Made by a program: the position numbers and the translations under genes. Shown here piece by piece: positions 6,644 through 58,453 of a stretch of DNA of 64,000 nt. The stretch comes from Clostridiales bacterium Firm_14 (GTDB lineage Bacteria > Bacillota > Clostridia > Saccharofermentanales > Saccharofermentanaceae), in the NCBI GenBank assembly GCA_001604135.1, contig LVAT01000007.1:1-64000 (forward strand). The letters run 5' to 3'. The notes below the pieces were generated by a model, which made no database searches, was not told the origin of the DNA, and saw nothing but the letters and a program-made list of their open reading frames with translations. The first letter of the stretch is position 1. Each line of letters begins with the position of its first letter.

Positions 6644-6650
6644 ACTGCGT

Positions 6651-6927: not shown

Positions 6928-6956
6928 AAAGGGCTGTCTCAACGAGGCAACCCTTT
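6928..6956 (-). terminator. Terminator of the PlsC-type acyltransferase gene
   Basis: Read on the minus strand, AAAGGGTTGCCTC and GAGACAGCCCTTT form a 13-base stem with one mismatch and a GTT loop, starting six bases after the stop codon. The tail is only mildly T-rich. Confidence 0.7.
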
Positions 6957-6961
6957 ATATA

Positions 6962-7741: not shown

Positions 7742-7812
7742 ATATACTCCTGAATGGTCTCTGTCATAAATACGCGACTAATATAACTCAAAAAAGGCAA
7801 TTTTGCGAATTA

Positions 7813-7841
7813 TTGTAAAATATTTCCAAAGTATGTTATAT
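7813..7841 (+). promoter_or_regulatory. Candidate promoter of the acyl-CoA ligase
   Basis: TTGTAA (7813-7818) and TTATAT (7836-7841) are spaced by 17 bases in the AT-rich gap between two divergent genes, 58 bases before the start codon. Both boxes are imperfect. Confidence 0.4.
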
Positions 7842-7898
7842 TTTCAGTTGCGCTTGACTTTTAGCTTTAGCTAGGACAAAGCACATGGAGGTAATAGT

Positions 7899-10704: not shown

Positions 10705-13700
10705 ATGGGTGAACTCAATCTCGAACGAAGCAATGTCAAATTCGATCTGTGGGAGCGTAAACTCCTTGACTTAAGTACCCGTAATTCACTTCTTAATCTG
10801 AGGATCAAAGGAACCAGCATTCCGCTGTTTGTTCCGGGCTGCGCAAAGATCGAAGATTATATCGCGCAGGAGAAGAATTTCTCCATCATTTCGCGCGGCG
10901 ACGAGGAAGAGGACGAAGAGGAAGAGACTTCAGAAGAAACTGAAGCTAAGGAAACTCCCGAAGCCATAAAGCCTGTTGAAGAAAATGCTGAGCCGACGCC
11001 CGTAGAGGCTTTGGCAGCTGAAGCCGAGAAGCCTGCAGAAGAAACTGAGAAGCCGCAAGAAGAGGCTGAGAAAGCCGAAGAAAAGCCTGAAGAGCCTGCT
11101 GATAAAGCACCTGAAGATAAGCCTGTTAAGGAAGCAGATACTGAAGCTTCCGCAGCGAAAGAACCTGCAAAGAAGAAAAAGATCAAGAAGATCCCTGCAA
11201 AGGATTATTCCCTTGAGGATCTTCCTAAGATCGACGAATTCCGTGAATACATTGAGAAGCAATATGAGAAGGGCGTACTTGTCTCATCACTGACAAATGC
11301 AGTGCTCGATAAGAATATCAAGACGCTTTACCGAGGTGCCAAGACTTCGATGGAAGAAAACGGCGCCAATACGTTGTTCCTTGCCTGCGGATTCTTAAAA
11401 TGGTACGAGAAGGACAGAAAGGATCCGTGCTACGCGCCGATCCTCCTGATCCCTGTAGAACTCGTTAAGAAGTTCGGCATCAAGTACACGATGAGAAGAA
11501 GAGACGAGGACGTCCAGTTCAACGTAACCGTTTCAGAGAAATTAAGACAGGACTTCAAGATCGATTTCGATTCGTTCAGCAAAGAGCTTCCCACTGATGA
11601 GAGCGGCGTTGATGTTCCGAAGATCTTCGAACAGATAAAGGAAGTCGTTAAGCCCCTTAAGACATGGGAAGTGATCGATGCGTGCGTTCTCGGATTGTTC
11701 TCATTCTCACAGTTCGTTATGTGGAATGACATGCACAGCCACAGAGATGAGATCGCTCAGAACAAGATCGTAAAAAGCCTTATCAACGGTCAGCTCGAAT
11801 GGGATTATGAAGACATCTCATCAACAGGCAAGGTTCCTGAAGAAGACGTTTATCTCCCCATCGTTGCAGATGCTTCACAGCTCGCTGCGATCAAGCGCGC
11901 GGGCGACGGAACGAGCTTCGTTCTCCACGGCCCTCCGGGAACGGGTAAATCACAGACTATCACATCGATAATCGCCAACTGTCTTGCCAATGGCAAGAAG
12001 GTTCTTTTCGCAGCTGAGAAGAAGGCAGCGCTGGACGTTGTATATAAGCGTCTGGAGAAGATCGGAATAGCGCCTTTCTGTCTGGAGCTTCACTCGAACA
12101 AAGTCCGTAAGAGCTATGTTCTTGACCAGCTTAAGATAGCAAGTGAAGTAAGCCTTAAGGCTAAGGGCGAAGGCGATTACAATAAGGCGTTGGAAGACAT
12201 CGCAGCGAAGAGAAGGGAACTCGATAAGTATGTTAATGAGCTCCACATCAAGCGCGGCTGCGGTATGTCTTTATATGAGCTCATCAATGTTTATGCGAGC
12301 AACCAGACAGCTCCTGAGTGCGGTGCATTTGACGAGGGCTTTGTCAATGAACTCACATCTGACAGAGTTAAGGAGATCGAGTCTTCGTTAGGCGAACTCG
12401 TTGCATCTTCGACTCATCTTAACGGCAAGCTCCCGTTCGTCAGATCATCCGCTTATTCACAGGATGCGAAGAGCAAGCTTCCTTTGCTGGTCGACGGTTT
12501 TGTTAAGGCTTACGATGAATTTGCTGCAGGCGTTGATGCTTTCGACGCGCTCCTTGCACAGAACAACTGCCGTATTCCTGGCGAGCCCAAGACAATAGGA
12601 AGGATCGCAGGATTAAGTTCCTGCAGCGCTCTTATCGCGAAGATCAAGGGACTCAATCTTCCTAAGGGCTTGATCTGCTGCGATGACACCGAGAGTGCTT
12701 ATCTTACTGTCAGAGATACTATCGTAAGCTGCAAGGATGCGATCGCAAAGCGCGATGCGATCCTTACCGTATACCAGCCCGGTTTCCTTGAGCTCGACGG
12801 CGCGGCTCTCCTTAGCGAGATCATTACTGCCAAGGCGAAGAATGCTCTCGTCAGAGGAATGGCTGAGAATGCAGTCTACAAGAAAGTAAAGGCATACGAC
12901 ATAAAGGGCAACCGTAAGGAAGTTCTGGAGCAGGATTTCAAGCTCCTTTCCGATTACAAGACTTCGGTTCAGAATGCCATGAACTACATAACTCTCGCGA
13001 GAGGTTATTTCGGTGAGCTCTATAATCCGGGCGCGGCTTTCCCCGGCTTTGACATCGCTTATTTCGAAACGATCAATGAGAATGCACACGCTGTATTTGC
13101 CGAGTTTGCTCCTTTTGATCCTACCGGATCACTTCGAAAACTCATCGGCAGCGGTGACGTCCTTGTTACTGATGCGGCTAATGCTTTCAATACCAAGTCT
13201 GATGCGTACAAGGCTTCTTATGACGAGCTTAATGCAACATACGGACTTGAGTATGGTGCATTTGAACCTGCTGCAGCTCTCCTTGAGACAAAGAAGCAGA
13301 TGGCTGAGACTCTTAAGGCTGACAGCGATTTCTTAAGAGACAGGATGCAGTTCAATCTCATGGCTTCCAAGTGCAGCCAGTATAAGATATCGAATCTTGT
13401 TACGGGTTACGGTACGGGCATGATAACAGGTGATGAGATCACCGGCTCTTTCCGTAAGGGATACAGCGCAATGCTCATATCCATGATAATCGACAACTCT
13501 GAAGTCTTAAGAACATTCTCTGGACTTGTTTTCGAGCAGAAGATAAGCGAGCTCTCAAAGGTAAACGATGATTTCGAGAAGCTCACGAGACAGGAGATCT
13601 ACTTAAAGATCGCAAGGAACCTTCCTGACTTAAGTAAGGATGCGAATGTATCTTCAGCGCTGGGAATCCTGCAGCATGCAATAAAGGCAGGCGGCAGGGG

Positions 13701-15888
13701 CGTATCTATCAGAACGCTCTTTACGCAGATCGGAGAGCTCATTTTAAAGCTCTGTCCGTGCGTGCTCATGAGCCCTCTGTCATGTGCGCAGTTCTTAGAT
13801 CCCGATAAGTGCGGAATGTTCGACATCGTCGTATTCGACGAGGCTTCACAGCTTCCCACATGTAAGGCAATCGGTGTTATCGCGAGAGGTAAGGAAGCCG
13901 TTATCGTAGGCGACCCTAAGCAGATGCCGCCTACGTCATTCTTTATGGAACAGGTAGATGACGGCGATGATGATTTCGAGACAGATGACTTGGAGAGCAT
14001 CCTCGATGACTGCCTTGCAATCTCAATGCCTCAGATGTTCCTCGCATGGCACTACAGAAGCCGTCACGAGAGCCTTATCACATTCTCCAACAAGGCATTC
14101 TACGATGGAAGGCTCTTCACATTCCCGTCGCCTGACGACAGGATGTCGAAGGTTACCATGGTTGACTGTGCAGGTTCATTCGATTCCGGCAAGACCAGAA
14201 CGAATAAGATCGAGGCACAGGCCGTGCTCGATGAGATCATCAAGAGAGCTCACGATCCCGAACTGTCGAAATTCAGCGTCGGCGTAGTTACGTTCAATAT
14301 CCAGCAGCAATCCCTGATAGAAGACCTCCTGGACGAAGCAGCAAGCAAGGATCCTGTTCTCGAGAAATGGGCATTCGGAAGCGAAGAACCCATATTCGTC
14401 AAGAACCTGGAGAACGTTCAGGGTGATGAGCGTGACGTTATCCTGTTCTCGATAGGATACGGCAAGGACGAGACAGGCAAGCTCATTATGAACTTCGGTC
14501 CTTTGAACAGGGACGGCGGATGGAGAAGACTTAACGTTGCAGTTACAAGATCAAGAATTGAGATGAAGGTATTCTCCTCCATGTCACCTGAAGAGATCCG
14601 CATCAACGAGACGGCATCTGAAGGCGTCAAGGCATTTAAGAGATTCCTCCAGTATGCATCAGGCAGCACTATCTGGGATCAGGATATCGCCAATACAGGC
14701 AGTTCATCAGACAGTTCCGGCACGCCGCTTATTGACCGTGATGCTTCATTTACCGGTATCGCAGATGATATCTGCGCGAGGTTTAAGGCGATAGGTTACG
14801 ACACTGACAAGGGTGTAGGTAAGTCAGGATTTAAGATCGACATCGGCGTCGTATCACCTGAGAAGGACGGCACATACTGCCTCGGTATCCTCTTGGACGG
14901 TCCTGTCTATGCGAAGTCAGGCACGACAACATCAAGAGAAGTATCCCAGATGTCGATGCTTAAGGGCTTCGGCTGGAATATCGTAAGGATATGGTCTCTT
15001 GAATGGTGGGAGAATCCTGACAAGGTATTCGATAAGCTCGTTGCGATAATTGAAGACGCCAAGAAGAAAGAAGAGGAACCTTCAGAAGAAGATCCTGCCG
15101 TGGAGCCTTCGGAGGGCGCAGAAACACCTTCAGAGGAAGCAATTGAGGAACCTGAAGAAGAGGGCAGATCTGACCCTCAGGTGACGATCTACGGAGTCAC
15201 ACCGGAAGAAGAAACAGACGGATCGGAAGATCAGGCTCAAAAAAAAACTGACGACATAAGGTCAGACGGATCTCCTGAATCAGTCTATAAAGCATCTGAC
15301 ATCAAGCCCAGGAAACTGACGGCTGCTGAATTCTGCGATCCGAGGAATACACCTCATCTTCAGCAATGGGTCGTATCAATCGTCGACCAGGAGTCTCCTG
15401 TAAGTTCTGATGTCCTCGCTAAAGAACTGATCACTCTTGCGGGAATCGCTAAGATGACGCCTAAGCTCCGTGAAAGGTGCTCTTATCTCATCAAGAGCAT
15501 TGAAAAGAGTGCGAAGATACATTACACGGCTCAGAAACTGGACCTTGCTTCCGAGGACGATAACGATGAAGTCATCTTCCTTTGGAAGGACGGAACCGAG
15601 ATAGGCAAGGTAATGGATAATTACCGCATCCCTCAGGAAGGCGAGAAGCCAAGAAAGGCCTGTGACATTCCGGTTCAGGAAGCAGCGTGCGCTTCAAGGT
15701 ATCTCGCGGTATCCCAGTACGGAATGCCTTATGAGAGCCTCATAGTGGAGACTGCAAAGGCAATGGGATTATCGAGAGCTCCGGCCGATTCAGATAATTA
15801 CAAGCTCGGAAAGAGAGCAGTTGATTATTGTATCCGCCAGCAGCTTCTGGTATTAGACGATGACGGCTTCGTCAAAGGAACAGAATGA
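10705..15888 (+). CDS. DUF4011 SF1 helicase with PD-(D/E)xK nuclease and DUF3320 domains
   Basis: A 1727-residue protein. The N-terminal LWERKLLDLSTRNSLLNLRI is the DUF4011 signature. Residues about 73-160 are an acidic Glu/Pro/Lys-rich insert. A superfamily-1 helicase core follows: Walker A GPPGTGKS at 409-416, Walker B FDEAS with D1045-E1046, VGDPKQMPPTSFF, HYRSRHESLI, and motif V/VI stretches VQGDERDVI and NVAVTRSR. Residues about 1375-1440 look like a Vsr/MTES_1575-type nuclease (D1379, LLDG at 1396-1399, GWNIVRIWSLEWW). A second acidic linker precedes a DUF3320-like C-terminus (DNYKLGKRAVDYCIRQQLLV). Related DUF4011 helicase-nuclease proteins are often placed among candidate defence genes; here it is a single gene with no partner. 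AGGAGG lies before the ATG. Confidence 0.87.
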   Translation: MGELNLERSNVKFDLWERKLLDLSTRNSLLNLRIKGTSIPLFVPGCAKIEDYIAQEKNFSIISRGDEEEDEEEETSEETEAKETPEAIKPVEENAEPTPVEALAAEAEKPAEETEKPQEEAEKAEEKPEEPADKAPEDKPVKEADTEASAAKEPAKKKKIKKIPAKDYSLEDLPKIDEFREYIEKQYEKGVLVSSLTNAVLDKNIKTLYRGAKTSMEENGANTLFLACGFLKWYEKDRKDPCYAPILLIPVELVKKFGIKYTMRRRDEDVQFNVTVSEKLRQDFKIDFDSFSKELPTDESGVDVPKIFEQIKEVVKPLKTWEVIDACVLGLFSFSQFVMWNDMHSHRDEIAQNKIVKSLINGQLEWDYEDISSTGKVPEEDVYLPIVADASQLAAIKRAGDGTSFVLHGPPGTGKSQTITSIIANCLANGKKVLFAAEKKAALDVVYKRLEKIGIAPFCLELHSNKVRKSYVLDQLKIASEVSLKAKGEGDYNKALEDIAAKRRELDKYVNELHIKRGCGMSLYELINVYASNQTAPECGAFDEGFVNELTSDRVKEIESSLGELVASSTHLNGKLPFVRSSAYSQDAKSKLPLLVDGFVKAYDEFAAGVDAFDALLAQNNCRIPGEPKTIGRIAGLSSCSALIAKIKGLNLPKGLICCDDTESAYLTVRDTIVSCKDAIAKRDAILTVYQPGFLELDGAALLSEIITAKAKNALVRGMAENAVYKKVKAYDIKGNRKEVLEQDFKLLSDYKTSVQNAMNYITLARGYFGELYNPGAAFPGFDIAYFETINENAHAVFAEFAPFDPTGSLRKLIGSGDVLVTDAANAFNTKSDAYKASYDELNATYGLEYGAFEPAAALLETKKQMAETLKADSDFLRDRMQFNLMASKCSQYKISNLVTGYGTGMITGDEITGSFRKGYSAMLISMIIDNSEVLRTFSGLVFEQKISELSKVNDDFEKLTRQEIYLKIARNLPDLSKDANVSSALGILQHAIKAGGRGVSIRTLFTQIGELILKLCPCVLMSPLSCAQFLDPDKCGMFDIVVFDEASQLPTCKAIGVIARGKEAVIVGDPKQMPPTSFFMEQVDDGDDDFETDDLESILDDCLAISMPQMFLAWHYRSRHESLITFSNKAFYDGRLFTFPSPDDRMSKVTMVDCAGSFDSGKTRTNKIEAQAVLDEIIKRAHDPELSKFSVGVVTFNIQQQSLIEDLLDEAASKDPVLEKWAFGSEEPIFVKNLENVQGDERDVILFSIGYGKDETGKLIMNFGPLNRDGGWRRLNVAVTRSRIEMKVFSSMSPEEIRINETASEGVKAFKRFLQYASGSTIWDQDIANTGSSSDSSGTPLIDRDASFTGIADDICARFKAIGYDTDKGVGKSGFKIDIGVVSPEKDGTYCLGILLDGPVYAKSGTTTSREVSQMSMLKGFGWNIVRIWSLEWWENPDKVFDKLVAIIEDAKKKEEEPSEEDPAVEPSEGAETPSEEAIEEPEEEGRSDPQVTIYGVTPEEETDGSEDQAQKKTDDIRSDGSPESVYKASDIKPRKLTAAEFCDPRNTPHLQQWVVSIVDQESPVSSDVLAKELITLAGIAKMTPKLRERCSYLIKSIEKSAKIHYTAQKLDLASEDDNDEVIFLWKDGTEIGKVMDNYRIPQEGEKPRKACDIPVQEAACASRYLAVSQYGMPYESLIVETAKAMGLSRAPADSDNYKLGKRAVDYCIRQQLLVLDDDGFVKGTE

Positions 15889-46272: not shown

Positions 46273-48534
46273 ATGGCACGTAAGAAAAAAGAAGATATCA
46301 ATTCAGATTCACTGAAAGCAAAGCTTACAGACAGCAATGCGAAGGACATGCCGGCTATAGACCAGCCGATCACGGAGATGCTCGAGATCAACTACATGCC
46401 GTATGCGATGAGTGTCATCGTATCCCGTGCCATTCCCGAGATCGACGGCTTCAAGCCTTCACACCGTAAGCTCCTTTACACAATGTATAAGATGGGCCTT
46501 TTGGGCGGCAACAGGACCAAGTCCGCAAACGTAGTGGGACAGACGATGAAGCTCAATCCTCACGGCGACCAGGCCATCTACGATACGATGGTAAGACTTA
46601 CGAGAGGTAACGGCTCGTTACTGCATCCTTTCGTTGATTCGAAGGGTAACTTCGGTAAGCAGTATTCCAGAGACATGCAGTGCGCTGCACCCCGTTATAC
46701 GGAAGTAAGACTCGAGAAGATCTGTGAAGAGATCTTCAAGGGCATAGACAAAGATGCCGTCGATATGGTTGATAACTATGACGGTACTCTCAAAGAACCC
46801 ACATTGCTTCCTACGACATTCCCGGCAGTTCTCGTTAATGCGAACCAGGGTATCGCCGTAGGCATGGCATCCAATATCTGCTCATTCAATCTTGCTGAAG
46901 TATGCGCTGCTACTGAAGCATATATGAGAGATCCCAATACCGATCTTCTGGAGATCATGCCTGCGCCTGATTTCTCCGGCGGCGGCAAGATCCTTTACAG
47001 CAAAGAGCAGATGAAGGCGATCTACGATACCGGTAAGGGCACATTCTCCGTCAGAGCCAAGTATCAGGTAGATAAGGCAAAGAATCTCATCGAGATCACT
47101 GAGATACCTTATTCCACGAGCGTTGAGGCGATCATTGATAATATCGCTGATCTCGTTAAGAGCGGTAAGGCCAAGGAGATTGCCGACATCCGTGATGAGA
47201 CTGACCTTGACGGTCTTAAGATCACGATCGACTGCAAGCGCGGTACTGACCACGAACAGCTCATGACAAAGCTCTTCAGATTCACCAAGCTCGAAGATAC
47301 TTTCTCATGCAATTTCAATATCCTTATCGACGGTTCGCCGAGAGTAATGGGTATTGCCCAGATACTTGATGAATGGCTCAAGTGGAGAAGAACATGCGTC
47401 TGCCGTGAGCTTTCATTTAACCTCGATAAGATGAAGAAGAAGCTGCACTTGCTTGATGGTCTCGCAGTAATCCTCTTGGACATTGATAAGGCGATCAAGA
47501 TCATCAGAGAGACAGAACTCGAAGCTGACGTTATCCCTAACCTCATGAAAGGCTTCGGCATCGATGAGGAACAGGCTGAATACGTAGCAGAGATCAAGCT
47601 CCGCAACATCAACAAGCAGTACATCCTAAACAGGATCTCCGACAGGGATAAGCTGAAGGCCGATATCGCTGATACCGAAGATCTCCTTGGAAGCCCCAGA
47701 AGGATCAACAACCTCATTGCAAAGACTTTGAAGGAAGTTGCCGAGAAGTACGGCCAGCCGAGAAGATCCGAGCTCGTAGGCGCAGAGGAGACAGAGACAT
47801 TTGTCGAATCGGCTGTCATTCCTGATTACAGGCTCCATCTCATGCTTACGCGTCACGGTTATCTTAAGAAGCACACAATGAAGTCACTTCAGAGTGCCGG
47901 CGAACTTAAGACCAAGGATGACGATGAGATATTCATGGGATTCGAGTGCGAGAATAAGTCAGATCTCCTGATCTTCACCGACAAGTGCAATCTCTATAAG
48001 ACTCACGTTTACGACTTCTCCGATACGAAGCCGGGTGATCTCGGTCACTTCCTTAACAGTGAGCTCGAAATGGAAGACGGTGAGAGACCGATGTTCATGA
48101 TCTCGACGACAGATTATAAGGGCATCCTCTTTATCGCTTTCGAGAACGGTAAGGCTGCAAGATTCCCCATCTCCGCATATGAGACGAAGCAGAACAGAAA
48201 GAAGCTCATCAATGCTTACTTTGACGGCAGCAAGGCAGTAGGATTCATCCTCCTTGATGAAGAAGAGGATCCGGATCTTATTGTTACCAACACGCTTGAT
48301 AAAGCTGCAGTATTTAAGGCTTCGCTGATCCCTCTTAAGACTACGAGAACGACACAGGGCGTTCAGCTCCTCGCATCGAAGAAGGGTTCAGTGCTGAGAT
48401 CGCTCTCGCGCCTTGCGGAAGTCGATGTACAGGATCCCGAGTATTACAGGATCCGCAAGGTGCCTGCTATAGGCTACTACATAAAGGAAAATTCTTTGGA
48501 GGCAAAGCAGGTTAGCTTTGATGATTTGAAGTGA
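46273..48534 (+). CDS. parC: Type IIA topoisomerase A subunit, divergent ParC/GyrA
   Basis: 753 residues. YAMSVIVSRAIPEIDGFKPSHRKLLYTM, HPHGD-like LNPHGDQAIYDTMVRL and AAPRYTEVRLEKI with the DNA-linking Y142 are the catalytic elements; a long helical coiled coil and a C-terminal beta-pinwheel-like region (from about 500) follow. EIDGFKPSH replaces the usual DVRDGLKPV. No GyrA box is evident, which favours topoisomerase IV. It overlaps the next gene by four bases (GTGA). Confidence 0.88.
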   Translation: MARKKKEDINSDSLKAKLTDSNAKDMPAIDQPITEMLEINYMPYAMSVIVSRAIPEIDGFKPSHRKLLYTMYKMGLLGGNRTKSANVVGQTMKLNPHGDQAIYDTMVRLTRGNGSLLHPFVDSKGNFGKQYSRDMQCAAPRYTEVRLEKICEEIFKGIDKDAVDMVDNYDGTLKEPTLLPTTFPAVLVNANQGIAVGMASNICSFNLAEVCAATEAYMRDPNTDLLEIMPAPDFSGGGKILYSKEQMKAIYDTGKGTFSVRAKYQVDKAKNLIEITEIPYSTSVEAIIDNIADLVKSGKAKEIADIRDETDLDGLKITIDCKRGTDHEQLMTKLFRFTKLEDTFSCNFNILIDGSPRVMGIAQILDEWLKWRRTCVCRELSFNLDKMKKKLHLLDGLAVILLDIDKAIKIIRETELEADVIPNLMKGFGIDEEQAEYVAEIKLRNINKQYILNRISDRDKLKADIADTEDLLGSPRRINNLIAKTLKEVAEKYGQPRRSELVGAEETETFVESAVIPDYRLHLMLTRHGYLKKHTMKSLQSAGELKTKDDDEIFMGFECENKSDLLIFTDKCNLYKTHVYDFSDTKPGDLGHFLNSELEMEDGERPMFMISTTDYKGILFIAFENGKAARFPISAYETKQNRKKLINAYFDGSKAVGFILLDEEEDPDLIVTNTLDKAAVFKASLIPLKTTRTTQGVQLLASKKGSVLRSLSRLAEVDVQDPEYYRIRKVPAIGYYIKENSLEAKQVSFDDLK

Positions 48535-50429
48535 CGGTATTTTCTTCCGAGTATTATGTCGCAGAAGACGAGATAAAGGACACAAGAGGCTACACCATAG
48601 CAGCCGTCCTTTGTGCTGTCATGCTGATCGCATTAACGATAACGACATTTGTTCTCGGAAGAAAGAATGCTTACGAACTTGAGACGGTTCCGAGCTTCGA
48701 ACTCGCAATAAACGAAGGCCGCTACGGTGATGCGCTTGATATCTACCGCGGCATTCAGGATGAGGTCCTGAAGTCATCTCCTGACGACCAGGCATCCAAT
48801 GCAACGCGCATCCAGATGCTCGATGACATGCAGAATATCGTAAGAGAGCACGTCGATGAGCTCTGCAACCGAATCATCAGCAACCGTTACGTGCTTACTC
48901 CGAGTGATATTAATTTCCTCGATTCCATGAAGGAACTTACGAGCTCTGTCGTATCCGAGAGACTTTACGGCATCTGTGAAGAATTCCTTTTGGGCAAGGT
49001 CGAGAAACCGGTAGTTACTTACTTTTTCGAGCAGCTTCAGCCGATCGGTAATTTCTCTGCTACCGCAAACCCGCTCCTTCGTGAGTTGGATTTCATTGAG
49101 ACTGCTACAGGTGATGTACAGACAGCAGAGACTTCACTCGAGAAGGGCGATTACATCGCAGCAGTAAAGAAGTATACACAGGTCAATACCAGTTATGACG
49201 GCTTTGTAGGTGACTACAGCGGAAAGCGGATAGCAGCCATCAAGGAAACGATGTATGAGCCCATGATGGCCGAAGGAGAGCATCTCCTTGACACATATAA
49301 GTTCTATTCCGCAGAGAGCCTGTTCTCTGATCTCGCGGTCATATTCCCTGAAGATGAAATGATCAAGAGCAATCTCCTGACTGCCACATCGCACACAAGC
49401 GAGGTCAAGGAATACAGGGGCAAGATCGAGTGCATCTGCGTAAGATCTCTTATTGCAGATACCGAAGTCGCATTCTCAGGCCGTTATCATTCAAGCAATA
49501 CGAATCTTCATCTGACCGCAAGGGAATTCGAGAAGATATTGGAAAATCTCTATGAAAGAGGATATGTCCTTGTCGATGTCGAAGACCTGATCGACCAGAG
49601 CGATCCGACATTCCTTTTGGAGCGTAATCTTAAGGTGCCCAAGGGCAAGAAGCCTTTGATCGTCGTTATCGAAGACCTCCAGTATGGTGTGGCGGATTAC
49701 AGATGCGGAACATGCAGAAGACTTGTGCTTAACGATGAGAACCAGGTCTGCGGCGAATACCAGAATAATGCGGGTGAGACTGTAGTCAGCAGAACGGCTG
49801 AAGCGATCGGCCTTCTTGATGTCTTTGTCGAAAAGCATCCGGACTTCACTTATGACGGCGCCAAGGGAATCATCTCTGTAAGCGGCCATGAAGCATGCTT
49901 CGGATACGTTGTTGCGGCAGGAGAACTCGAAGACAGAAATGCTGCATTGTCCGCTGCAAATCTCCCTCAGCTTACGGGCATCACGAATGATGACATTGAT
50001 TTTGCCAGAGAAAAAGTCATGGAGATCAAGAACGTTTTGGCTGATAACGGCTGGAAGTTTGCTTCATGCACATATTCATATATCGAAGACTGCAGAAACA
50101 CCGAGAAGCAGGTGCTCATCGACGATTTCGTAAAGTGGCAGGACCAGATAGGAACCCTGTTCGGAGAAGTGCACATTCTGGTATATCCGAACGGTAATTA
50201 TATCTATGGTACGGATGACAGGGCGGTATATTTTAAGAACCGCGGATTCAGGATATTCTTCGGCGGCGGCGCTACGCCTTATCACATCTATGGAGACAAT
50301 TACCTGTTTGTCGATCGTGCGATGATGAGCTATACGACCTTGACCAGAAAGGCCTATAAGGAACTTTTCGACTATAACGAGATCGTTGATCCCGTCAGAA
50401 CGCAGAATTCAGACACGAAAAACACTTGA
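48531..50429 (+). CDS. Membrane-anchored polysaccharide deacetylase-like protein
   Basis: 632 residues, GTG start fused to the parC stop (GTGA), no separate ribosome site, so coupled translation. A short cytoplasmic part is followed by one membrane helix (about 23-44), a helical repeat region (about 55-270) and a C-terminal NodB-like domain: KPLIVVIEDLQYG, FVEKHPDFTYDGAKGIISVSGHEACFGYVVAAG, WKFASCTYSYIEDC and HILVYPNGNYIYG. The HPDF..GAKG..GY wording is that of clostridial deacetylase-like proteins. The usual metal triad (D-H-H) is only partly visible, so activity is uncertain. Why it is coupled to topoisomerase genes is not clear. Confidence 0.72.
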   Translation: MTVFSSEYYVAEDEIKDTRGYTIAAVLCAVMLIALTITTFVLGRKNAYELETVPSFELAINEGRYGDALDIYRGIQDEVLKSSPDDQASNATRIQMLDDMQNIVREHVDELCNRIISNRYVLTPSDINFLDSMKELTSSVVSERLYGICEEFLLGKVEKPVVTYFFEQLQPIGNFSATANPLLRELDFIETATGDVQTAETSLEKGDYIAAVKKYTQVNTSYDGFVGDYSGKRIAAIKETMYEPMMAEGEHLLDTYKFYSAESLFSDLAVIFPEDEMIKSNLLTATSHTSEVKEYRGKIECICVRSLIADTEVAFSGRYHSSNTNLHLTAREFEKILENLYERGYVLVDVEDLIDQSDPTFLLERNLKVPKGKKPLIVVIEDLQYGVADYRCGTCRRLVLNDENQVCGEYQNNAGETVVSRTAEAIGLLDVFVEKHPDFTYDGAKGIISVSGHEACFGYVVAAGELEDRNAALSAANLPQLTGITNDDIDFAREKVMEIKNVLADNGWKFASCTYSYIEDCRNTEKQVLIDDFVKWQDQIGTLFGEVHILVYPNGNYIYGTDDRAVYFKNRGFRIFFGGGATPYHIYGDNYLFVDRAMMSYTTLTRKAYKELFDYNEIVDPVRTQNSDTKNT

Positions 50430-51012: not shown

Positions 51013-51996
51013 GTGGAAACAAGGATTGACAGATTCGGCAGTGTCCGTGAGGACAAGATAAAGCAGCTCAAGGAGTTGATCGAAGAGTCTAAATATATCG
51101 TGTTCCTCGGAGGAGCAGGTGTATCCACCGAGAGCGGAATTCCTGATTTCAGAAGCGGCGCCGGCATCTACAATACTGAGAGCGGTACCAAGTACAGACC
51201 TATCGATATCATCGCTCATGATTTCTTCATGGAGCATCCTGAAGATTTCTATGATTTCTATAAGCGTAAGCTCATCTATCCTGATGCAAGACCCAATAAG
51301 GCTCACAAGGCTCTCGTAAGACTTGAGAGACAGGGAAAGCTTAAGGCCATCATCACTCAGAATATCGATAACCTCCACCAGGAAGCAGGCAGTAAGTGCG
51401 TGATCGAGCTTCACGGTTCAGTTTACAGAAACTACTGCATGGACTGCGGCAAGAAGTTCAATATTGAATACATTGCTTCTCAGGAAGGTGTTCCTCACTG
51501 TGACAAGTGCGGCGGCATCGTAAGACCTGACATCGTTCTTTATGAAGAGAACTTGGAGCACGAGAATGTTGATAATGCGATCAAGGCAGTTAAGAAGTGC
51601 GACCTCATGATCATTGCCGGAACATCGCTTACGGTTTATCCGGCTGCTACTTTCGCACAGTTCTTAAAGCATGACCGCATCGTTATCATTAACAAGAGTT
51701 CGACATATATGGATCTTAAGGCTTTGCTTACGATCCACGATAATGTAGGTGAAGTTCTAGATAAGGTAGTTCCGAAGCGTGTATCAAGGAAGACGACAGC
51801 TTCCAAGACAGGCGCTAAGAAGAGTACGTCAAAGAAGACAACTTCTAAGACAACAACCAAAGCAGCTCCTAAGACAACCACAAAGGCAGCACAAAAGACT
51901 ACGGCTAAGGCTGCTCCGAAGAAAGAAACAGCCAAGAAACCTTCAGCTAAGAAACCTGCAGCTTCAAAGGCGAAGAAGGATGAAAGCAAATCTTAA
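51013..51996 (+). CDS. SIR2 family NAD-dependent deacylase with histone H1-like tail
   Basis: 327 residues, GTG start with GAGG eight bases upstream. Residues 1-250 are a complete sirtuin: FLGGAGVSTESGIPDFRSGAGIY (NAD loop), TQNIDNLHQEAG, catalytic H134 in ELHGS, zinc C142, C145, C163, C166, and IIAGTSLTVYPA. The last 70 residues are almost only Lys, Thr, Ala, Ser and Pro in short repeats (KTTSKTTTKAAPK style), like histone H1 or bacterial H1-like proteins, and would be strongly positive. The tail may tether the deacylase to DNA or be itself an acylated target. The next gene starts within its last codons. Confidence 0.93.
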   Translation: METRIDRFGSVREDKIKQLKELIEESKYIVFLGGAGVSTESGIPDFRSGAGIYNTESGTKYRPIDIIAHDFFMEHPEDFYDFYKRKLIYPDARPNKAHKALVRLERQGKLKAIITQNIDNLHQEAGSKCVIELHGSVYRNYCMDCGKKFNIEYIASQEGVPHCDKCGGIVRPDIVLYEENLEHENVDNAIKAVKKCDLMIIAGTSLTVYPAATFAQFLKHDRIVIINKSSTYMDLKALLTIHDNVGEVLDKVVPKRVSRKTTASKTGAKKSTSKKTTSKTTTKAAPKTTTKAAQKTTAKAAPKKETAKKPSAKKPAASKAKKDESKS

Positions 51997-53842
51997 CTAC
52001 TACGAAGAAAAGGATAAATCGATAATTGCCGATCTTGCCTCTTATGGAAGGCAGAGCGGCATTTTATCATTCTTCAGACTGATTACTTTTCTTGGAGCGG
52101 CAGGGCTTATCATCGGCGGTATTGCATCACAGATACCGGCGCTTTATATTTCCGGCGCTTTCATTTTCTTAAGCTTTATCATTTTCTGCATCGTTCACGG
52201 AAGGATCCTGGATAAGGTCAATTATCTTACTGAATTATCCAAGGTTAATTCTTCTTATATCGCCAGGATCAAGGGCGATTTCAATGAGCTCCGCAATATC
52301 GCTGTAAAGGGCTTGAAGAGGGCAGAAGATATAGGTCTTGCAAAGAGCAGGCTATACGGAAAGGACTTCGAAGTTGCCGATCACGATTACTGCGTTGATC
52401 TTGATGTCTTCGGAAAGAAATCCCTTTTCTCACTTCTTAACGTTTCCGAGACTTCTTTCGGCAGAAGAAGATTTGCCGAGAGCCTTTTAAATCCGCATGT
52501 TTCAGAGATTACCACAGACGAGCTTAAGTCAAAGCAGGCTTCGGTTAAGGAGCTTATCGGCAAGCCCGATGTCCTTATGGATTATCAGGCAACGGCGAGA
52601 CTCGGAAGAATGGTGAAAGATCCCAAGGCTCTTATGGATTTTGCAGGGAACGGATCGAAAACGAAGACCATTGCAAATGTCCTCGGAATTATAGGATGCG
52701 TTATCTGGGTTTCGGTTCCCATAGCTTATGTCATCGTTCCCGATTATGCTGCGGCAACTATCCCTTCCTGTCTTATCATCAACCTGTTCATCTTCATGGC
52801 AGGCCGTATCTTCAATGACGTTTATCTTAAGGCGTGCGAGGGAATGCCTGCACAGGTAAAGACGATACTTAAGCTCTATAAGATCCTTGAGAATGCAGGC
52901 TTTGAGGACGAAGGGCTGAAGTCACTCATAAAGGGTTCTGATGAATCAAAGGGTGCATATGAATCATTAAAGAAGCTTAACGATGTGCTTAAGATCGCAG
53001 GACTCCGTTCACAGCCTTTGTTTGCTCTGTTACTAAATCTTATAGCTCCTTTGGATTATCTGATCTCATTCATGCTCGGCAACTGGGCCGTAAATCACGG
53101 CAAGTACCTGCCGTCTTATATCAGCGGTTTATCAGAAGTGGAAGCGCTTATGTGCGCTGCACAGACAGGTCTTGTTCTTCCTGTAAGCACTTTCCCTGTA
53201 TTTGTTGAATCGGATAATGCAGTAGATAATGCTTATTTTGAAGGTTATGACCTTGCCCATCCGCTCCTTGCGATCGATACTGTCGTCAGGAATTCCGTAA
53301 AGATCAGTAATGACATTGCGATCATCACAGGTTCTAACATGTCCGGCAAGACAACTATGATAAGGACCGTCGGTGTATGTACGATCCTCTCGCTTACAGG
53401 CGGTCTTGTACCTGCAACAAACCTGAAGCTTGGCAGGATGAGGGTAATGAGCTCCATGAGGATCGTCGACAGCATTGAGGAGAATATGAGTACTTTTAAG
53501 GCAGAACTCATAAGGATCTCCGGAATAGTTAATGCAGCAGGGGAAGAGAAGGCTCTGTTATTCCTCATTGATGAGATATTCAGGGGAACGAACTCAGATG
53601 ACAGGACCGAAGGTGCCCTTACTGTTCTTAAGAAGTTATCGAAGCCTTATATCTGCGGCCTTATGACAACGCACGATTATGCGATGATCGATAAGACGCA
53701 GACAGGTTTTGACAATATACGTTATTATCACTTCTCGGAGTCTTATACGGACACGGAAATAGTCTTTGACTATAAGCTGGCATCCGGAATAAGCAGGCAA
53801 TCAAACGCTAAGTACCTTATGAAACTGGTCGGAATCGAATGA
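51980..53842 (+). CDS. Membrane-anchored MutS-like ATPase
   Basis: 620 residues, starting at the ATG that overlaps the sirtuin stop by 17 bases (AAGG nine bases upstream). Two membrane helices (about residues 28-48 and 50-68) precede a MutS core without mismatch-recognition domain: lever/clamp helices about 80-400 with two more hydrophobic stretches near 233-275, then the ATPase with Walker A GSNMSGKT (451-458), SLTGGLVPA, STFKAELIRI, Walker B LLFLIDEIFRGTNSDDR and TTHDY. This is the layout of the MutS-related membrane family of Bacillota, whose function is unknown. Coupling to a sirtuin is unusual. Confidence 0.88.
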   Translation: MKANLNYYEEKDKSIIADLASYGRQSGILSFFRLITFLGAAGLIIGGIASQIPALYISGAFIFLSFIIFCIVHGRILDKVNYLTELSKVNSSYIARIKGDFNELRNIAVKGLKRAEDIGLAKSRLYGKDFEVADHDYCVDLDVFGKKSLFSLLNVSETSFGRRRFAESLLNPHVSEITTDELKSKQASVKELIGKPDVLMDYQATARLGRMVKDPKALMDFAGNGSKTKTIANVLGIIGCVIWVSVPIAYVIVPDYAAATIPSCLIINLFIFMAGRIFNDVYLKACEGMPAQVKTILKLYKILENAGFEDEGLKSLIKGSDESKGAYESLKKLNDVLKIAGLRSQPLFALLLNLIAPLDYLISFMLGNWAVNHGKYLPSYISGLSEVEALMCAAQTGLVLPVSTFPVFVESDNAVDNAYFEGYDLAHPLLAIDTVVRNSVKISNDIAIITGSNMSGKTTMIRTVGVCTILSLTGGLVPATNLKLGRMRVMSSMRIVDSIEENMSTFKAELIRISGIVNAAGEEKALLFLIDEIFRGTNSDDRTEGALTVLKKLSKPYICGLMTTHDYAMIDKTQTGFDNIRYYHFSESYTDTEIVFDYKLASGISRQSNAKYLMKLVGIE

Positions 53843-53978: not shown

Positions 53979-55676
53979 ATGTTCGAAGGCTTGAGCAAGT
54001 ATTTTTCTATTGTTCTTGATTACTCTGTTGTTTTGGAATGTTCCAACGGAGTTTTATTTGATGAACTCTTAAACCTCTTCAACGATTATGGTATCGACTG
54101 TTATGTCAACGATACATTTAAGGTCCTCCACAAGTGTGTAATCGCTCAGCAGGATCCTAAGGACAAGGCTGTTCAGCCCGCAATGCGTTCGTTGATGCAG
54201 AGCCTTCTTACCACTAATAAGCTCCACCTTATCAATACATGTAATACCGAGAGATTCATCGAGCAGGTAAATGAACTCGATTACTCGGTTCTTCTCACTA
54301 CAGAGAGAAGTATTCTTTTTAAGAGATTCTTCGAAAAGGATCTCACATATAATCACGACGTTGCTATCCTCTCTCCAAAGGGACTCAGGATCTATTCGTC
54401 TCTTCAGGAGATGAAGGAAGATAATCCTCTTCCTGAGATCAGCAGCCTCGCTAAGATCGATTCATTCCTTGATTCGGATGCCAGAGCCAACATCGGTGAC
54501 ATCGTTAATTACAACGGCGGTGAGAGAATGGTTCTCGAGAAGAGGCTTTCCGGCGGCGCCGAAGGAATGGTATTCCTTACAGACAATAAGAAGCTTATTG
54601 CCAAGGTTTATCACAAGGGCGTTATCACGCCTTTAAGATGGGCTAAGCTTAAGAAGCTCACAGAACTCGGTATTACTTCGACATCTTTCTGTGCTCCACA
54701 GTCTTTGCTCTATTTCAGAAATGTTCCTATCGGATATACGATGTTCCTAGGAAAGGGTACGACGTTAAGCAATGTTTTCGACGGTCCTGATGCAATCTTA
54801 GAGCATTTCCCTGACTGGACGAGACTCGATATCTGTGAGACATTGCTCTCGCTTATCGGAAAATATCTCTATCTCCACATGCATGACGTTATTGCAGGAG
54901 ACATCCAGCTTAAGAATGCTTTGATCGAGGATTCGGCTCATCAGTATCTTATCGATATGGATAGTGTACAGGTCGGGAATTATCCTTGTCCTGTCGGCAC
55001 TGAGGATTTCACGGATCCTAATCTCTGGGGCAAGGATTTCTCAGGCTTTGTAAGATCATTGAAGGACGAAGACTATTCGATCGCAATGCTTGTATTCTCC
55101 ATATTGTTCTGTGGTCTCCATCCTTATGCGACGAGAAACGGCGCTGAGACGTTAAGGGAAGAGATTTTAAACAAGAATTTCCCTTATACTCTTGATAATT
55201 CGAATACTGAACATATCCCGTTAGGCGGATATGACCATATCTGGGAATATCTCCCTGAATATCTGCGCAAGATGCTTTACAGGACTTTCAAGGAAGGTAA
55301 GTCTTATGAAGCCGTTTGCTGGAGAGATGCAATTCAGCAGTACATGACTGAATTGGAGAATTTCAAGTATGACGATGCGGAAGCATATAAGCTTTTCCCT
55401 TGCGAGGATTATAAGCAGCTGAGTATCAATGTAGAAGAATATAGAGCAATGCTTGCTGAGCAGAAAGAATCCGCTCAGAGAGCCGCTGAACCGAAGCCGA
55501 AATTCGAGAAGAAGCAGTTTAATAATGTTCCTTCCGGAAGGTTTGTTTCTTCCAGCGTAGGTGAGTCGAGCAGTTTCAGACCGATGAAGTTTGATGACGA
55601 TAAACCCGCCAAAAATGAAGCTCCCGTTTCTATACCTACACCTGCTCCTAAGAAGAAATTCTTCGGTTTATTCTGA
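53979..55676 (+). CDS. Protein kinase-like protein with PIN-like N-terminal domain
   Basis: 565 residues. Residues about 8-130 resemble a PIN-like fold (IVLDYSVVLE near the start, D14 and E20; YSVLLTTERSILFKRF), but only weakly. Residues about 180-430 are a kinase-like domain: Gly loop GGAEG (192-196), Lys K209 in AKVY, catalytic loop GDIQLKN with D308 and N313, and DMD (D326-D328) in place of DFG. The tail (about 480-565) is Lys/Pro/Ser-rich and ends FFGLF. It is the first gene of an operon with a VWA and a PP2C protein, the set of the TerY-P triad. GGAGAGAAGG precedes the ATG; TTGACT at 53911 may be a -35 box. Likely phosphorylates protein partners; the DMD change leaves that open. Confidence 0.8.
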   Translation: MFEGLSKYFSIVLDYSVVLECSNGVLFDELLNLFNDYGIDCYVNDTFKVLHKCVIAQQDPKDKAVQPAMRSLMQSLLTTNKLHLINTCNTERFIEQVNELDYSVLLTTERSILFKRFFEKDLTYNHDVAILSPKGLRIYSSLQEMKEDNPLPEISSLAKIDSFLDSDARANIGDIVNYNGGERMVLEKRLSGGAEGMVFLTDNKKLIAKVYHKGVITPLRWAKLKKLTELGITSTSFCAPQSLLYFRNVPIGYTMFLGKGTTLSNVFDGPDAILEHFPDWTRLDICETLLSLIGKYLYLHMHDVIAGDIQLKNALIEDSAHQYLIDMDSVQVGNYPCPVGTEDFTDPNLWGKDFSGFVRSLKDEDYSIAMLVFSILFCGLHPYATRNGAETLREEILNKNFPYTLDNSNTEHIPLGGYDHIWEYLPEYLRKMLYRTFKEGKSYEAVCWRDAIQQYMTELENFKYDDAEAYKLFPCEDYKQLSINVEEYRAMLAEQKESAQRAAEPKPKFEKKQFNNVPSGRFVSSSVGESSSFRPMKFDDDKPAKNEAPVSIPTPAPKKKFFGLF

Positions 55677-55738
55677 AGCCTCTTCTGATATAATTTTTAT
55701 GTGCAAACTATTAACTCTCGAATATTCGGAGGACTTTT

Positions 55739-56470
55739 ATGGCGGACGGTTTTTCTAGTTCAGATTTCGGTACAAGTACGAAGAGAAGACTCCCGATCTG
55801 TTTCGCTCTTGATACATCAGGTTCCATGATGGGCAACCCGATCAAGCAGCTCAACATGGGCCTTCAGAACTTTGTGGCTTCGATCAAATCAAATGATGAT
55901 ACAAGATCTTCAACAGACATAGCTATCATTACATTCGGTTCCAAGGTTGAGATCGTAATGCCTTTCGGTAAGATCTCCAAGGAGAAGGGTCTGCCTGAGA
56001 TCACGGCATCGACTACGCTTACTCCGATCGGTGAAGGCGTACTTACTGCATTAGAGCTCCTCAATGCCCGTAAAGAAGGCTATAAGGAGATGGGAATCAA
56101 GTATTTCCAGCCCTGGCTCGTTGTAATTACAGACGGTGCACCGCAGGGTCCCAATGCCATGCAGAACATGGAGCGTGCCATCGAAGCTTGTAATGAACTC
56201 GAGAGAGACGATAAGCTCGTTGTTTTCAATATCGGCGTTGGTTCCGGTGTCGACTTTGATATATTGAAGAGGCTTTCCATCAAGCGTCCCGAACCGATCT
56301 CGGTAAACTCTGCTGATTTCGGCAAACTCTTTGAATTCCTCGGTTCTTCGTCATCTTCCATCGTATCGTCCGGCATGAGTGACGATGCGCTTTATAACAT
56401 CGACACTACGCCCCAGGGCAAGGCTGTCGACATGGATGATTTCATGAAGTTCATTAATGAGGAAAGCTGA
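55739..56470 (+). CDS. TerY-like von Willebrand factor A domain protein
   Basis: 243 residues, soluble. RRLPICFALDTSGSMMGNPIKQLN carries the MIDAS motif DxSGS (D25-S29), with ITFGSKVEIVMPF, TASTTLTPIGEGV (MIDAS Thr) and VVITDGAPQGP following, all as in TerY. A metal ion at the MIDAS site would bind a partner's acidic residue. The start has GGAGG upstream; the stop overlaps the start of the PP2C gene (TGATG). Likely an adaptor linking kinase and phosphatase. Confidence 0.9.
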   Translation: MADGFSSSDFGTSTKRRLPICFALDTSGSMMGNPIKQLNMGLQNFVASIKSNDDTRSSTDIAIITFGSKVEIVMPFGKISKEKGLPEITASTTLTPIGEGVLTALELLNARKEGYKEMGIKYFQPWLVVITDGAPQGPNAMQNMERAIEACNELERDDKLVVFNIGVGSGVDFDILKRLSIKRPEPISVNSADFGKLFEFLGSSSSSIVSSGMSDDALYNIDTTPQGKAVDMDDFMKFINEES

Positions 56471-57552
56471 TGTATACGGGAATTACGGTTGGAGCGATCA
56501 CAACCATAGGTAATAAGCATGTTAACCGCGGTACTCCCTGTGAGGACGCATCTTTTGCTGTTGCCAAAAACGGTGTTTCTGTTGTTTGTATAGCCGACGG
56601 AGCAGGCGGTAAGCAGTATACCGATGCCAGATTCGGTTCTGATTGCGCCGTTCATGTTATCACTGATACATTATGCGAGCATTTCGATGCTTTATACAGC
56701 GAGAACAGGGAGGCAGCCGTAAGAGGTTATCTTATGGCAAAGCTCCGCGTTGCTTTCGCAGGCATTATGGAAGAGCGTACGATCGACGTGATCGACAGGC
56801 TGTCCTGCACATTGCTCTTTGTTGCAGTCAAGGACAGAAGAATGATGATCGGTCATATCGGCGACGGACTTATCGTAAGGATATCTCCTTCAGGCGTAAG
56901 CCCCATCTCGATGCCGCAGAACGATAAAGATGGTAAGACTTATTTTGTTACCGCAGCGCATGCAGATAATTACATGCGTCTCCTTAAGACAACTGTTGAC
57001 GATGTCCACGCGATAGCGCTCATGACTGACGGCGTTCAGGACAGCGTATATAACGAAGAGGCAGGACTTGTTAAGCCCGTAGTCGCCAAGATGGCTGAGA
57101 CATTCGCAGAAGGCAGGGAAGAAGGCGAGAAATCTATCCTTGATACTGTTAAGCAGTATATCGTCGGCGCTTCCAATGCCAGTGATGACGCGAGTTTCGG
57201 TGTCATGTATTTCGATGGCACGAAAGCGCCTTCGCCTGATACTTTAGAGACCTCAGCTGCCAAGTTTGCTTCTTCGACTGAGACATTCAAGGATCTCTCA
57301 CTGGCAATCAAGCCTGAGCTTATAAATGCCCATGAGATAATCGTGAAGTGTGCAGGCGGTGAAGTTTCCGAGACAGAGCAGGCTCCTGCCGAACCTGTTA
57401 AGGAAGAGGCTCAGATGCCTGCTGAAGTTAATACTGAAACCCCTGCAAAGGAGCCTTCCAAGCTCAGCAAGATCTCAATTATCGTGCTTGTTATCGGAGT
57501 TATCCTTTGCCTTGTTGGTGCAATAGAATTAGTGCTTTCGCTTAAAGGGTGA
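56470..57552 (+). CDS. PP2C-type Ser/Thr phosphatase with C-terminal membrane helix
   Basis: 360 residues. The PP2C metal-site motifs are in order: HVNRGTPCEDASFA, CIADGAGG (D43), HIGDGLIVR (D132), ALMTDGVQD (D187) and ASDDASFG (D239, D240). After about residue 250 the chain becomes Glu/Pro/Ala-rich, and a membrane helix (about 335-357) ends the protein, so the catalytic domain faces the cytoplasm from a membrane anchor. Reverses phosphorylation, presumably by the kinase two genes upstream. Seven bases separate it from the coiled-coil gene. Confidence 0.92.
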   Translation: MYTGITVGAITTIGNKHVNRGTPCEDASFAVAKNGVSVVCIADGAGGKQYTDARFGSDCAVHVITDTLCEHFDALYSENREAAVRGYLMAKLRVAFAGIMEERTIDVIDRLSCTLLFVAVKDRRMMIGHIGDGLIVRISPSGVSPISMPQNDKDGKTYFVTAAHADNYMRLLKTTVDDVHAIALMTDGVQDSVYNEEAGLVKPVVAKMAETFAEGREEGEKSILDTVKQYIVGASNASDDASFGVMYFDGTKAPSPDTLETSAAKFASSTETFKDLSLAIKPELINAHEIIVKCAGGEVSETEQAPAEPVKEEAQMPAEVNTETPAKEPSKLSKISIIVLVIGVILCLVGAIELVLSLKG

Positions 57553-57559
57553 GTGATCT

Positions 57560-58453
57560 ATGAGAGAAGAGAAGAAATACGAGATTTTGCCGGGTGTTGA
57601 GATTCCCGACATTAAGAAGATCCAGGAAGCTGCTTCTGACTTCAGCATTTCAGAAGTAGGCGATGTCGATATCAATACTGTTGCTTACGAGCCCATCATG
57701 TCAGCAGTTACGCCTTCAGTATCGCCAGAAGAGCTTGCAAGACTCCAGGCTCTTGGTGTTAAGGTCGCGGAAGACGAAGAGCGCTCCAGGGCTGAGAGCA
57801 AGGCTAAGATGGACAAGATCATGAAGAACGTTCAGGCTCCTGAATCCATTGGTGACCTTAAGGCTTCTCATATTGCCCAGCTTGACGAAGAGAAGCGCAA
57901 GCAGCTTGAAGAGAACATGAAGGAAGCTAACCAGCAGCAGGCTGAGGAAGAGGCTAAGAATAAGGCGCGTGAAGAACGCCGCCAGCTCCAGCAGAGACTC
58001 CTCGAAGAGTCCAGGGAAAAGGCTCAGAAGGAAGCAGAAGAAAGATCTGCAAGAGAAGCTGCAGAGAAGGCTAAGAAAGAAGCAGAGGAGAAAGCCGCTA
58101 AGGAAGCTGCTGAAAAGGCTGCAAAGGAAGAGGCTGAGCGCAGGGCCAAAGAAGATGCCGAGAAGGCTGCTAAGGAAGCCGCTGAGAAAGCAGAAAGAGA
58201 AGCTGCCGAGAAGAAAGCTGCTGAGATCGCTGAGAGAGAAGCCAAGGTTCAGGCTGCTAAGGAAGCTGCACAGAAAGCTGCGAAAGAGGCTCTCGGAAAG
58301 GCTGCCAGCAATGCCGCTGTTAAGGCTGCGGAAGAAACGAACAAGAAAGAACCCGTTAAGCCCATCTGGGAAGTTAAGAAGACTACGACTACGCTTTCTA
58401 CTGAAGAGACGACAGAAGCATTCAAGGAATTCCTTGACGACGATACTTTCTGA
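57560..58453 (+). CDS. Long coiled-coil protein ending in a Thr-rich segment
   Basis: 297 residues. Residues about 75-260 are a nearly uninterrupted charged helix of Ala/Glu/Lys heptads (AAEKAAKEEAE style, as in TolA). The first 70 residues and the last 40 are not coiled-coil; the tail has TTTTLSTEETTEAF, a cluster of candidate phosphorylation sites. Last gene of the kinase-VWA-PP2C operon with GGGTGAGTGA upstream. I infer a substrate, scaffold or filament of the system; no family is assigned. Confidence 0.72.
   Translation: MREEKKYEILPGVEIPDIKKIQEAASDFSISEVGDVDINTVAYEPIMSAVTPSVSPEELARLQALGVKVAEDEERSRAESKAKMDKIMKNVQAPESIGDLKASHIAQLDEEKRKQLEENMKEANQQQAEEEAKNKAREERRQLQQRLLEESREKAQKEAEERSAREAAEKAKKEAEEKAAKEAAEKAAKEEAERRAKEDAEKAAKEAAEKAEREAAEKKAAEIAEREAKVQAAKEAAQKAAKEALGKAASNAAVKAAEETNKKEPVKPIWEVKKTTTTLSTEETTEAFKEFLDDDTF

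Follow-up and report, generated by a model that had tools for sequence, protein, structure and literature searches.

A core operon of one Clostridia family encoding a PIN-fold kinase, a VWA protein, a PP2C phosphatase and a candidate partner protein

The window analyzed here, a 64,000-nucleotide stretch of contig LVAT01000007.1 from Clostridiales bacterium Firm_14 (Saccharofermentanaceae), carries four adjacent forward-strand genes at 53979–58453, which encode a protein kinase with an N-terminal PIN-fold domain, a TerY/YegL-type VWA protein, a PP2C phosphatase and a low-complexity/coiled-coil protein, here called g4. This operon is a conserved core operon of one Clostridia family. The reading that we favor, and regard as on balance probable, is that a TerY-P-like PIN-kinase/VWA/PP2C module was recruited in the ancestor of the family as a fixed, vertically inherited, membrane-tethered signaling operon. 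The genes and their parts are as follows (ORF, open reading frame; aa, amino acids):

53979..55676, forward strand: kinase gene, ORF of 565 aa, with a PIN-fold domain, a YegI-like protein kinase domain and a disordered tail
53979..54428, forward strand: N-terminal PIN-fold domain, kinase residues 1–150, from AlphaFold2, Foldseek, VIA and alignment with PIN-kinases outside the family
54519..55403, forward strand: protein kinase domain, about residues 181–475, from the YegI alignment, AlphaFold2 and structure matches
55650..55673, forward strand: extreme C-terminus of the kinase, KKKFFGLF, a basic-hydrophobic end common in genus-1 kinases
55739..56470, forward strand: VWA gene of TerY/YegL type, ORF of 243 aa, with a full metal ion-dependent adhesion site (MIDAS; D25, S27, S29, T95 and D132)
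56470..57552, forward strand: PP2C gene (Pfam) with a C-terminal transmembrane helix, ORF of 360 aa
57472..57549, forward strand: predicted C-terminal transmembrane helix of the PP2C, placed by hydropathy over the final 60 aa, with its exact ends set by eye
57560..58453, forward strand: g4, the low-complexity/coiled-coil protein gene after the PP2C, ORF of 297 aa
57560..57649, forward strand: conserved N-terminal motif of g4, KKYEILPGVEIPDIKKIQEAASDFS, defined from 72 pattern-matched rows
58394..58450, forward strand: C-terminal tail of g4, acidic and bearing Ser/Thr, with a ..F.EFL core; a strict pattern for the tail matches 51 of the 70 g4 proteins that are complete

The four genes look like one operon, or one transcription unit: the gaps between them are 62 bases (kinase-VWA), -1 (VWA-PP2C) and 7 (PP2C-g4), and the start of the PP2C gene overlaps the stop of the VWA gene (TGATG). 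An earlier note on this DNA, made from its letters and ORFs, had placed four forward-strand ORFs here, and all four were found. Scans for promoters (8 sites vs 7.2 expected) and for terminator-like sites (8 vs 3.9 expected) were taken as uninformative.

With the window kinase as query, a match was obtained in 108 of 115 family genomes, including all 62 of good quality; the seven without a match are 64–88% complete. One match per genome was found in 106 of the 108, and the other two show two partial matches. Across the order, this single-sequence query matched 108/188 genomes and 0/73 of those outside the family. When a sample of the class was searched with a profile, 20 of 391 matched, and 11 of these were family members; five of the nine others had E < 1e-10, and two of these five (L145 and L146) were nearer to YegI. 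Gene order was read in named loci, the best 80 of 109, with genus labels assigned by identity; these overlap with the loci of the genome survey and are not independent of them. The family records among them are titled Saccharofermentans, Mageeibacillus, Ruminococcaceae bacterium and the like, and many come from rumen and gut samples; two cultured isolates, strains KHP2 (L110) and AB4001 (L061), have the operon in their genomes. The VWA gene directly follows the kinase in 79 of the 80 loci, the contig ending in the eightieth (in L085, reading of the VWA covered its second half only); the PP2C gene comes next in 77/79, the exceptions being one contig end and the interrupted locus L058; and g4 comes next in all 76 loci with room for it, in 72 by pattern and in 4 by reading. 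Loss of the PP2C and g4 from L058 (the same as G051) was considered and rejected, both genes being found intact beyond a two-component/ABC-type cassette that is inserted there. In one genome (L147, ~2808–8436), the VWA and PP2C genes are separated by an insertion that holds a response regulator, a histidine kinase and ABC-type genes (by eye). The four-gene module proposed by the earlier note is therefore real as a conserved order, and what the note did not see is its family-wide core distribution. As the order recurs in other genomes and the kinase matches a kinase fold (below), neither of the two results that the note had set against its own proposal was obtained.

The kinase itself scores only E 0.078 with Pfam Pkinase, below the cut-off, and both relatives scanned (L048 and L046) score over it. 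The AlphaFold2 model of the window protein (predicted local distance difference test, pLDDT, 86; predicted template modeling score, pTM, 0.84) matches the solved kinases LCK, Src and PknB, with a best E of 1.7e-9, and a PDB profile search with the kinase alignment returned generic protein kinases, VRK1 at the top (E 6.5e-4). K209, D308, N313, D326 and D328 are identical in all 94 distinct family kinases. The identification as a kinase was thus upheld, and it covered only part of the protein, the N-terminal PIN fold having been missed. Modeled alone, residues 1–150 reached a pLDDT of 91.7 with alternating strands and helices, and the top Foldseek matches were mainly PIN domains, namely Utp24, AF0591, SMG6 and VapC (the preribosome chains among the matches are presumably Utp24). 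The VIA list also holds the SMG5 PIN domain, at Z 7.4; the human SMG5 PIN domain, which we take to be inactive, resembles that of the family in having the fold without an intact active site, whereas the family domain is fused to a protein kinase and that of SMG5 is not.

The PIN assignment is convincing because homologous kinases outside the family carry a Pfam-scored or annotated PIN domain at the same N-terminal position: PIN_4 is at or above the cut-off in L142, L173 and L179 and below it in L169 and L178, a Paenarthrobacter relative is annotated as PIN domain-containing, and family and outside N-termini can be aligned through the first Asp. The N-terminal domain of the window kinase is accordingly modeled as a PIN fold, at modest scores supported by these homologous PIN-kinases. 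These data also bear on the alternative that the kinase is of a general YegI type, serves the envelope or metabolism, and has an N-terminal domain that is only PIN-like (Rossmann-like), with no defense ancestry. Gene-by-gene homology to Escherichia coli yegL-pphC-yegI would fit that view, as would the modest fold matches, which include methyltransferases and other non-PIN proteins; however, the highest Foldseek and VIA ranks are held mainly by PIN domains, and the homologous kinases have a scored or annotated PIN domain there that aligns with the family N-terminus through its first Asp, so we consider this alternative unlikely.

Conservation of the PIN metal-binding site was counted in an alignment of N-termini, 94 distinct ones from the family and 11 from outside it. 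The complete set of four metal-binding acids occurs in 8/11 outside relatives vs 0/94 family kinases. Columns 1 to 4 hold an acid in 94, 17, 40 and 4 of the 94 family sequences, and the window kinase has D14, K52, E95 and R110 there, with E109 beside the last. The family PIN domain is therefore predicted to be nuclease-dead. Identity of the domain between genera is only 20–25%, and F47 (94/94), K48 (89/94), H51 (90/94) and R116 (92/94) are near-invariant. Judged from topology, these residues, together with D14, would cluster at the flanks of the former active-site cleft and so point to a ligand pocket in place of a nuclease. That the PIN domain might instead have kept its RNase activity, with a changed metal site and with phosphorylation to restrain or release it, so that the family would carry a kinase-controlled toxin as a core gene, could be argued from the universal first acid, from the second acid kept in genera 2, 4 and 5, and from D14, E95 and E109 in the window. 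We regard it as improbable, since no family kinase has the full set of acids that most outside relatives retain, the second acid is absent from 75/75 genus-1 kinases (and from 2/2 of genus 3), and the fourth is absent from 90/94.

At its other end, the kinase has a C-terminal transmembrane helix by hydropathy in 13/19 members of genera 2–5 and in 0/75 of genus 1. Genus-1 kinases have at least three basic residues within the last 18 aa in 72/73 and end in a (G/K)-hydrophobic-hydrophobic-x-x-F pattern in 49/73, and the KKKFFGLF end of the window kinase is a candidate peripheral membrane anchor. The VWA protein is recognized by Pfam (VWA, E 1.2e-14), and its MIDAS is conserved across the family, with D25, S27, S29 and T95 present in 91 of 92 rows and D132 in all 92; the sole exception is one short row that is gapped at the first four positions. 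The phosphatase matches PP2C_2 (E 4.9e-33), and its metal-site columns are identical in 91/91 distinct family sequences. Hydropathy likewise gives a C-terminal transmembrane helix in all 91, in agreement with the membrane-anchored phosphatase described in the earlier note.

By sequence comparison, the window system is built like TerY-P and shares homology with the broader YegI/YegL group. The VWA protein aligns with E. coli YegL (34% identity, E 3e-34), the kinase with YegI (25% identity over 282 aa, E 1e-17) and the phosphatase with PphC (23% identity, E 1e-7), which bears out the claim of a TerY-P-like kinase/VWA/PP2C module. The YegL-PphC(YegK)-YegI set of E. coli K-12 resembles the window in combining homologous VWA, PP2C and kinase proteins with no Ter genes beside the triad, so a triad without Ter genes is not the novelty for which it had been taken. 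Unlike the window, the E. coli triad has no g4 and places the VWA first and the kinase last; in addition, the alignment starts at YegI residue 12, leaving YegI no room for an N-terminal PIN-fold domain such as that of the window kinase. YegI is described as a membrane-bound autophosphorylating Ser/Thr kinase that is dephosphorylated by PphC (PMC13232886).

The TerY-P triad is described as consisting of a TerY-like VWA, a PP2C and a Ser/Thr kinase fused to a C-terminal zinc ribbon (PMC11090510). The window shares with it the TerY/YegL-like VWA and the adjoining PP2C and kinase, the Ser/Thr specificity of the latter being predicted, and differs from it in that the kinase has no C-terminal zinc ribbon, the PP2C is membrane-anchored, the distribution is core rather than patchy, and g4 is added. 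A zinc-ribbon CxxC was found in the tail of 0/94 family kinases, so the stronger claim of the earlier note, that the genes are exactly the TerY-P set, had to be dropped. Its statement that Ter genes are lacking stood for TerD, which is absent from 21/21 genomes (the whole genome of the window and 20 relatives), and TerC was not searched. With neither zinc ribbon nor TerD, the system is not filed as TerY-P proper. Sets of kinase-zinc ribbon, PP2C and VWA have been described in actinobacteria, PIN not being named in the accessible part of that source (PMC7159879).

Closest in architecture are PIN-kinase, VWA and PP2C triads outside the family (L142, L168, L169, L170, L173, L178 and L179), which have the same parts in the same order as the window; they differ from the family in mostly keeping the PIN acids, in mostly having a zinc-ribbon-type tail, and in being scattered and partly on plasmids. 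The strongest kinase matches outside the family (G849, G866, G624, G643 and G870 outside the class, and G372 and G500 inside it) are PIN-kinases, and the tail of most of them resembles a zinc ribbon; one or two VWA genes come next, and then a PP2C gene, which was not seen in L143. CxxC tails occur in 9/12 outside kinases, and a C-terminal transmembrane helix occurs in 0/9 outside PP2Cs; the PP2C of L169 has a helix-turn-helix Pfam hit over the cut-off. The L178 and L179 relatives lie on plasmids that also carry conjugation genes and transposases. In addition, a Fusobacterium vincentii record contains a copy with 70% identity, a sign that the outside version is transferred horizontally. Several of these loci have further peculiarities: L168 (7801–12325) has two tandem PIN-kinase genes, the first without a CxxC tail; the PIN-kinase of L169 (7786–10293) carries an additional IF2_N-like stretch at its N-terminus (E 2.5e-5, narrowly short of the cut-off); and the gene after the plasmid triad of L178 (11084–11740) weakly matches a J-domain at its end (E 9.4e-4, below the cut-off). 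E. coli yegI likewise has a chaperone-related neighbor, the Hsp70-family gene yegD. In phylogenetic trees, the family kinases form one clade (support 97/94), as do the family VWAs (100/100).

Given such relatives, the operon might still work on its own in defense or against stress, as a TerY-P-type system retained for use against phages. Homologous triads are reported to be antiphage in two sources (PMC7699616; PMC11090510), which concern OB-fold variants of TerY-P, and among the close relatives L143 adjoins a TIR protein (Pfam), L142 adjoins restriction-subunit-like genes (by eye), and others sit on plasmids. In the family, however, the operon is fixed in 62/62 good genomes with neighbors common across genera, and its PIN acids are not conserved. 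The window kinase has no match among 50,697 phage records, and neither the family kinase profile nor the L142 kinase matched in a scan of viral contigs; carriage of the operon by phages was rejected on the results for the window kinase and the family profile. A single weak match to the phage records, 29% identity over 21% of the query, was returned by the L142 kinase. PADLOC 2.0.0, run on the four window proteins, gave one marginal hit (PDC-M13A, E 0.0025, 25 residues). Continued service in defense thus appears unlikely, a little more so than the YegI-type alternative.

The fourth gene is defined by its ends. Pfam gave no match to g4, and a long coiled coil, by which the earlier note had characterized it, was rejected as its defining feature because the coil is short or absent in the genus 2–4 loci read. 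Its length runs from 114 to >400 aa (114–135 aa in seven genus 2–4 loci read), and its highly charged middle varies from a short stretch up to a long Lys/Glu/Ala-rich helix. The N-terminal motif across genera reads K-Y-x5-V-x2-P-D-x3-I-x2-A-A-S-D-F, and in the 72 matched rows the K is kept in 71, the Y, the P and the first A in 72, the S in 69 and the last D in 67. At the C-terminus, genus-1 proteins typically have E-T-x-D-D-F-x-E-F-L, strictly in 51/70 and as variants in most others, with neither form seen in L090, L100 and L101; the strict pattern misses EETTEAFKEFLDD, the version shared by the window and its nearest relatives. Genus-5 g4 has an acidic tail of a different form. The Thr-rich tail singled out by the note does exist in the window, as merely the local form of this acidic ..F.EFL tail. 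Outside the family, the motif pattern was found in 0/18 loci; the same pattern finds 12/17 family loci and is thus only moderately sensitive, so the absence of g4 outside the family is suggestive. The separate pattern applied to the named loci missed L102, L111, L112 and L123, in which g4 is present on reading; g4 of L115 is frame-broken, and two others run off the ends of their contigs.

The acidic tail of g4 is a candidate phosphorylation or docking site. It is possible, and compatible with the favored reading, that g4 is instead a passive scaffold or membrane tether and not a substrate: the conserved N-terminal motif, the variable charged middle and the wide range of lengths suggest docking and spacing, but a Ser/Thr-bearing C-terminal tail is also conserved in most genus-1 members, and we hold the scaffold role only tentatively.

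Gram-positive PASTA kinase/Stp1-type PP2C systems also pair a Ser/Thr kinase with a PP2C. The window kinase has no PASTA repeats, as it gave no Pfam hit for PASTA, and PASTA proteins are encoded elsewhere in the genome; with PASTA domains in 21/21 genomes searched, the idea that the operon replaces the PASTA kinase was rejected. In the literature, at the level of titles and abstracts and with most subscription papers outside coverage, including the original TerY-P and YegI papers, no account was found of PIN-kinase/VWA/PP2C triads, of the family-wide operon or of g4.

The surroundings of the operon are conserved as well. Where contigs reach, a large TPR-like gene, a bPH gene, a Sir2 gene and a MutS-like gene lie upstream in all five genera, except that bPH was not detected in genus 2. 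In the window, these surroundings include a large protein at 48531–50429 with no Pfam family over the cut-off, membrane-anchored by eye, which is a conserved upstream neighbor in the family; a Sir2-family protein at 51013–51996, whose long Lys/Ala/Thr-rich tail has a weak match, below the cut-off, to the HC2 family of histone H1-like proteins (E 3.6e-4); and a MutS domain V protein at 51779–53842, a conserved neighbor of the kinase operon, in which hydrophobic stretches were noted by eye close to the N-terminus and whose listed ORF overlaps the Sir2 gene in a different frame. A pyridoxal-dependent decarboxylase of ornithine/diaminopimelate/arginine type (Pfam; LysA-like by eye) lies between the MutS-like gene and the kinase in 7/8 loci listed, and not in the window; in three genomes of the sister family f4, no such module was found beside the LysA-like gene. 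Past g4 on the opposite strand, L048 encodes an FtsW/RodA-type protein fused to an FHA (phosphothreonine-binding) domain (12961–14772). A link between this fusion and the operon was rejected, as close matches occur only in two genus-3 genomes of 113, with two weaker genus-1 hits.

Several observations weigh against recruitment of a defense-type PIN-kinase module as a fixed signaling operon. The fold evidence is modest: only two Foldseek matches to the PIN domain model have E < 0.001 (best 4.6e-4), the best VIA-align match, the SMG6 PIN domain, has Z 8.7 where unrelated enzymes reach 8.0, and Pfam found no PIN domain in 35 family N-termini scanned. Loss of the metal-binding acids is not uniform, the second being kept in 17/17 kinases of genera 2, 4 and 5; the window kinase has a Glu in column 3 and another, Glu109, adjoining column 4; counting the neighboring column 109 as well would give the genus-4 kinase of L045 a full set of four acids; and two PIN alignments disagree at the third and fourth acid columns, the wider one having been used for the counts. 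The direction from active to dead PIN rests on parsimony, as the deeper joins of the trees are weak: in the kinase tree, the fork that parts the family from the PIN-kinase and YegI rows has support of 46/57, and in the VWA tree, the family joins the PIN-kinase VWAs at 88/78 on long branches. A defense role for the outside relatives is suggested by their neighbors only, PADLOC having assigned them mostly to generic kinase models. Finally, with PASTA proteins in the same genome, the operon is not the sole candidate Ser/Thr signaling system.

Under the favored reading of a recruited, membrane-tethered signaling operon, the module would act as a reversible phosphorylation switch at the membrane, with kinase and PP2C antagonizing each other as YegI and PphC are reported to do (PMC13232886). 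The nuclease-dead PIN pocket (D14, F47, K48, H51 and R116) would bind a cytoplasmic ligand, perhaps a nucleotide or RNA, and thereby set kinase activity; the kinase would autophosphorylate like E. coli YegI and phosphorylate Ser/Thr in the acidic tail of g4, and the membrane-bound PP2C would reverse the mark. The VWA protein, through its MIDAS metal, may serve as an adaptor joining kinase, phosphatase and g4, the N-terminal motif of g4 would be the docking site, and g4 would be substrate, scaffold or hub. Because the distribution is fixed, a housekeeping envelope or growth function is a more likely output than phage defense.

A fuller version, which we put forward tentatively, is that an immune-type module was domesticated at the root of the family into an indispensable membrane signaling pathway, in which the nuclease became a ligand-sensing pocket, the zinc ribbon gave way to membrane targeting, and a recruited disordered protein, g4, became a dedicated phospho-substrate and hub. 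If true, it would be a clear case of a defense-type module turned into a housekeeping pathway via loss of a nuclease. The family has a fixed, syntenic triad with a candidate dedicated partner, so that the signal, the role of the VWA protein and the substrate could be sought there by ordinary genetics.

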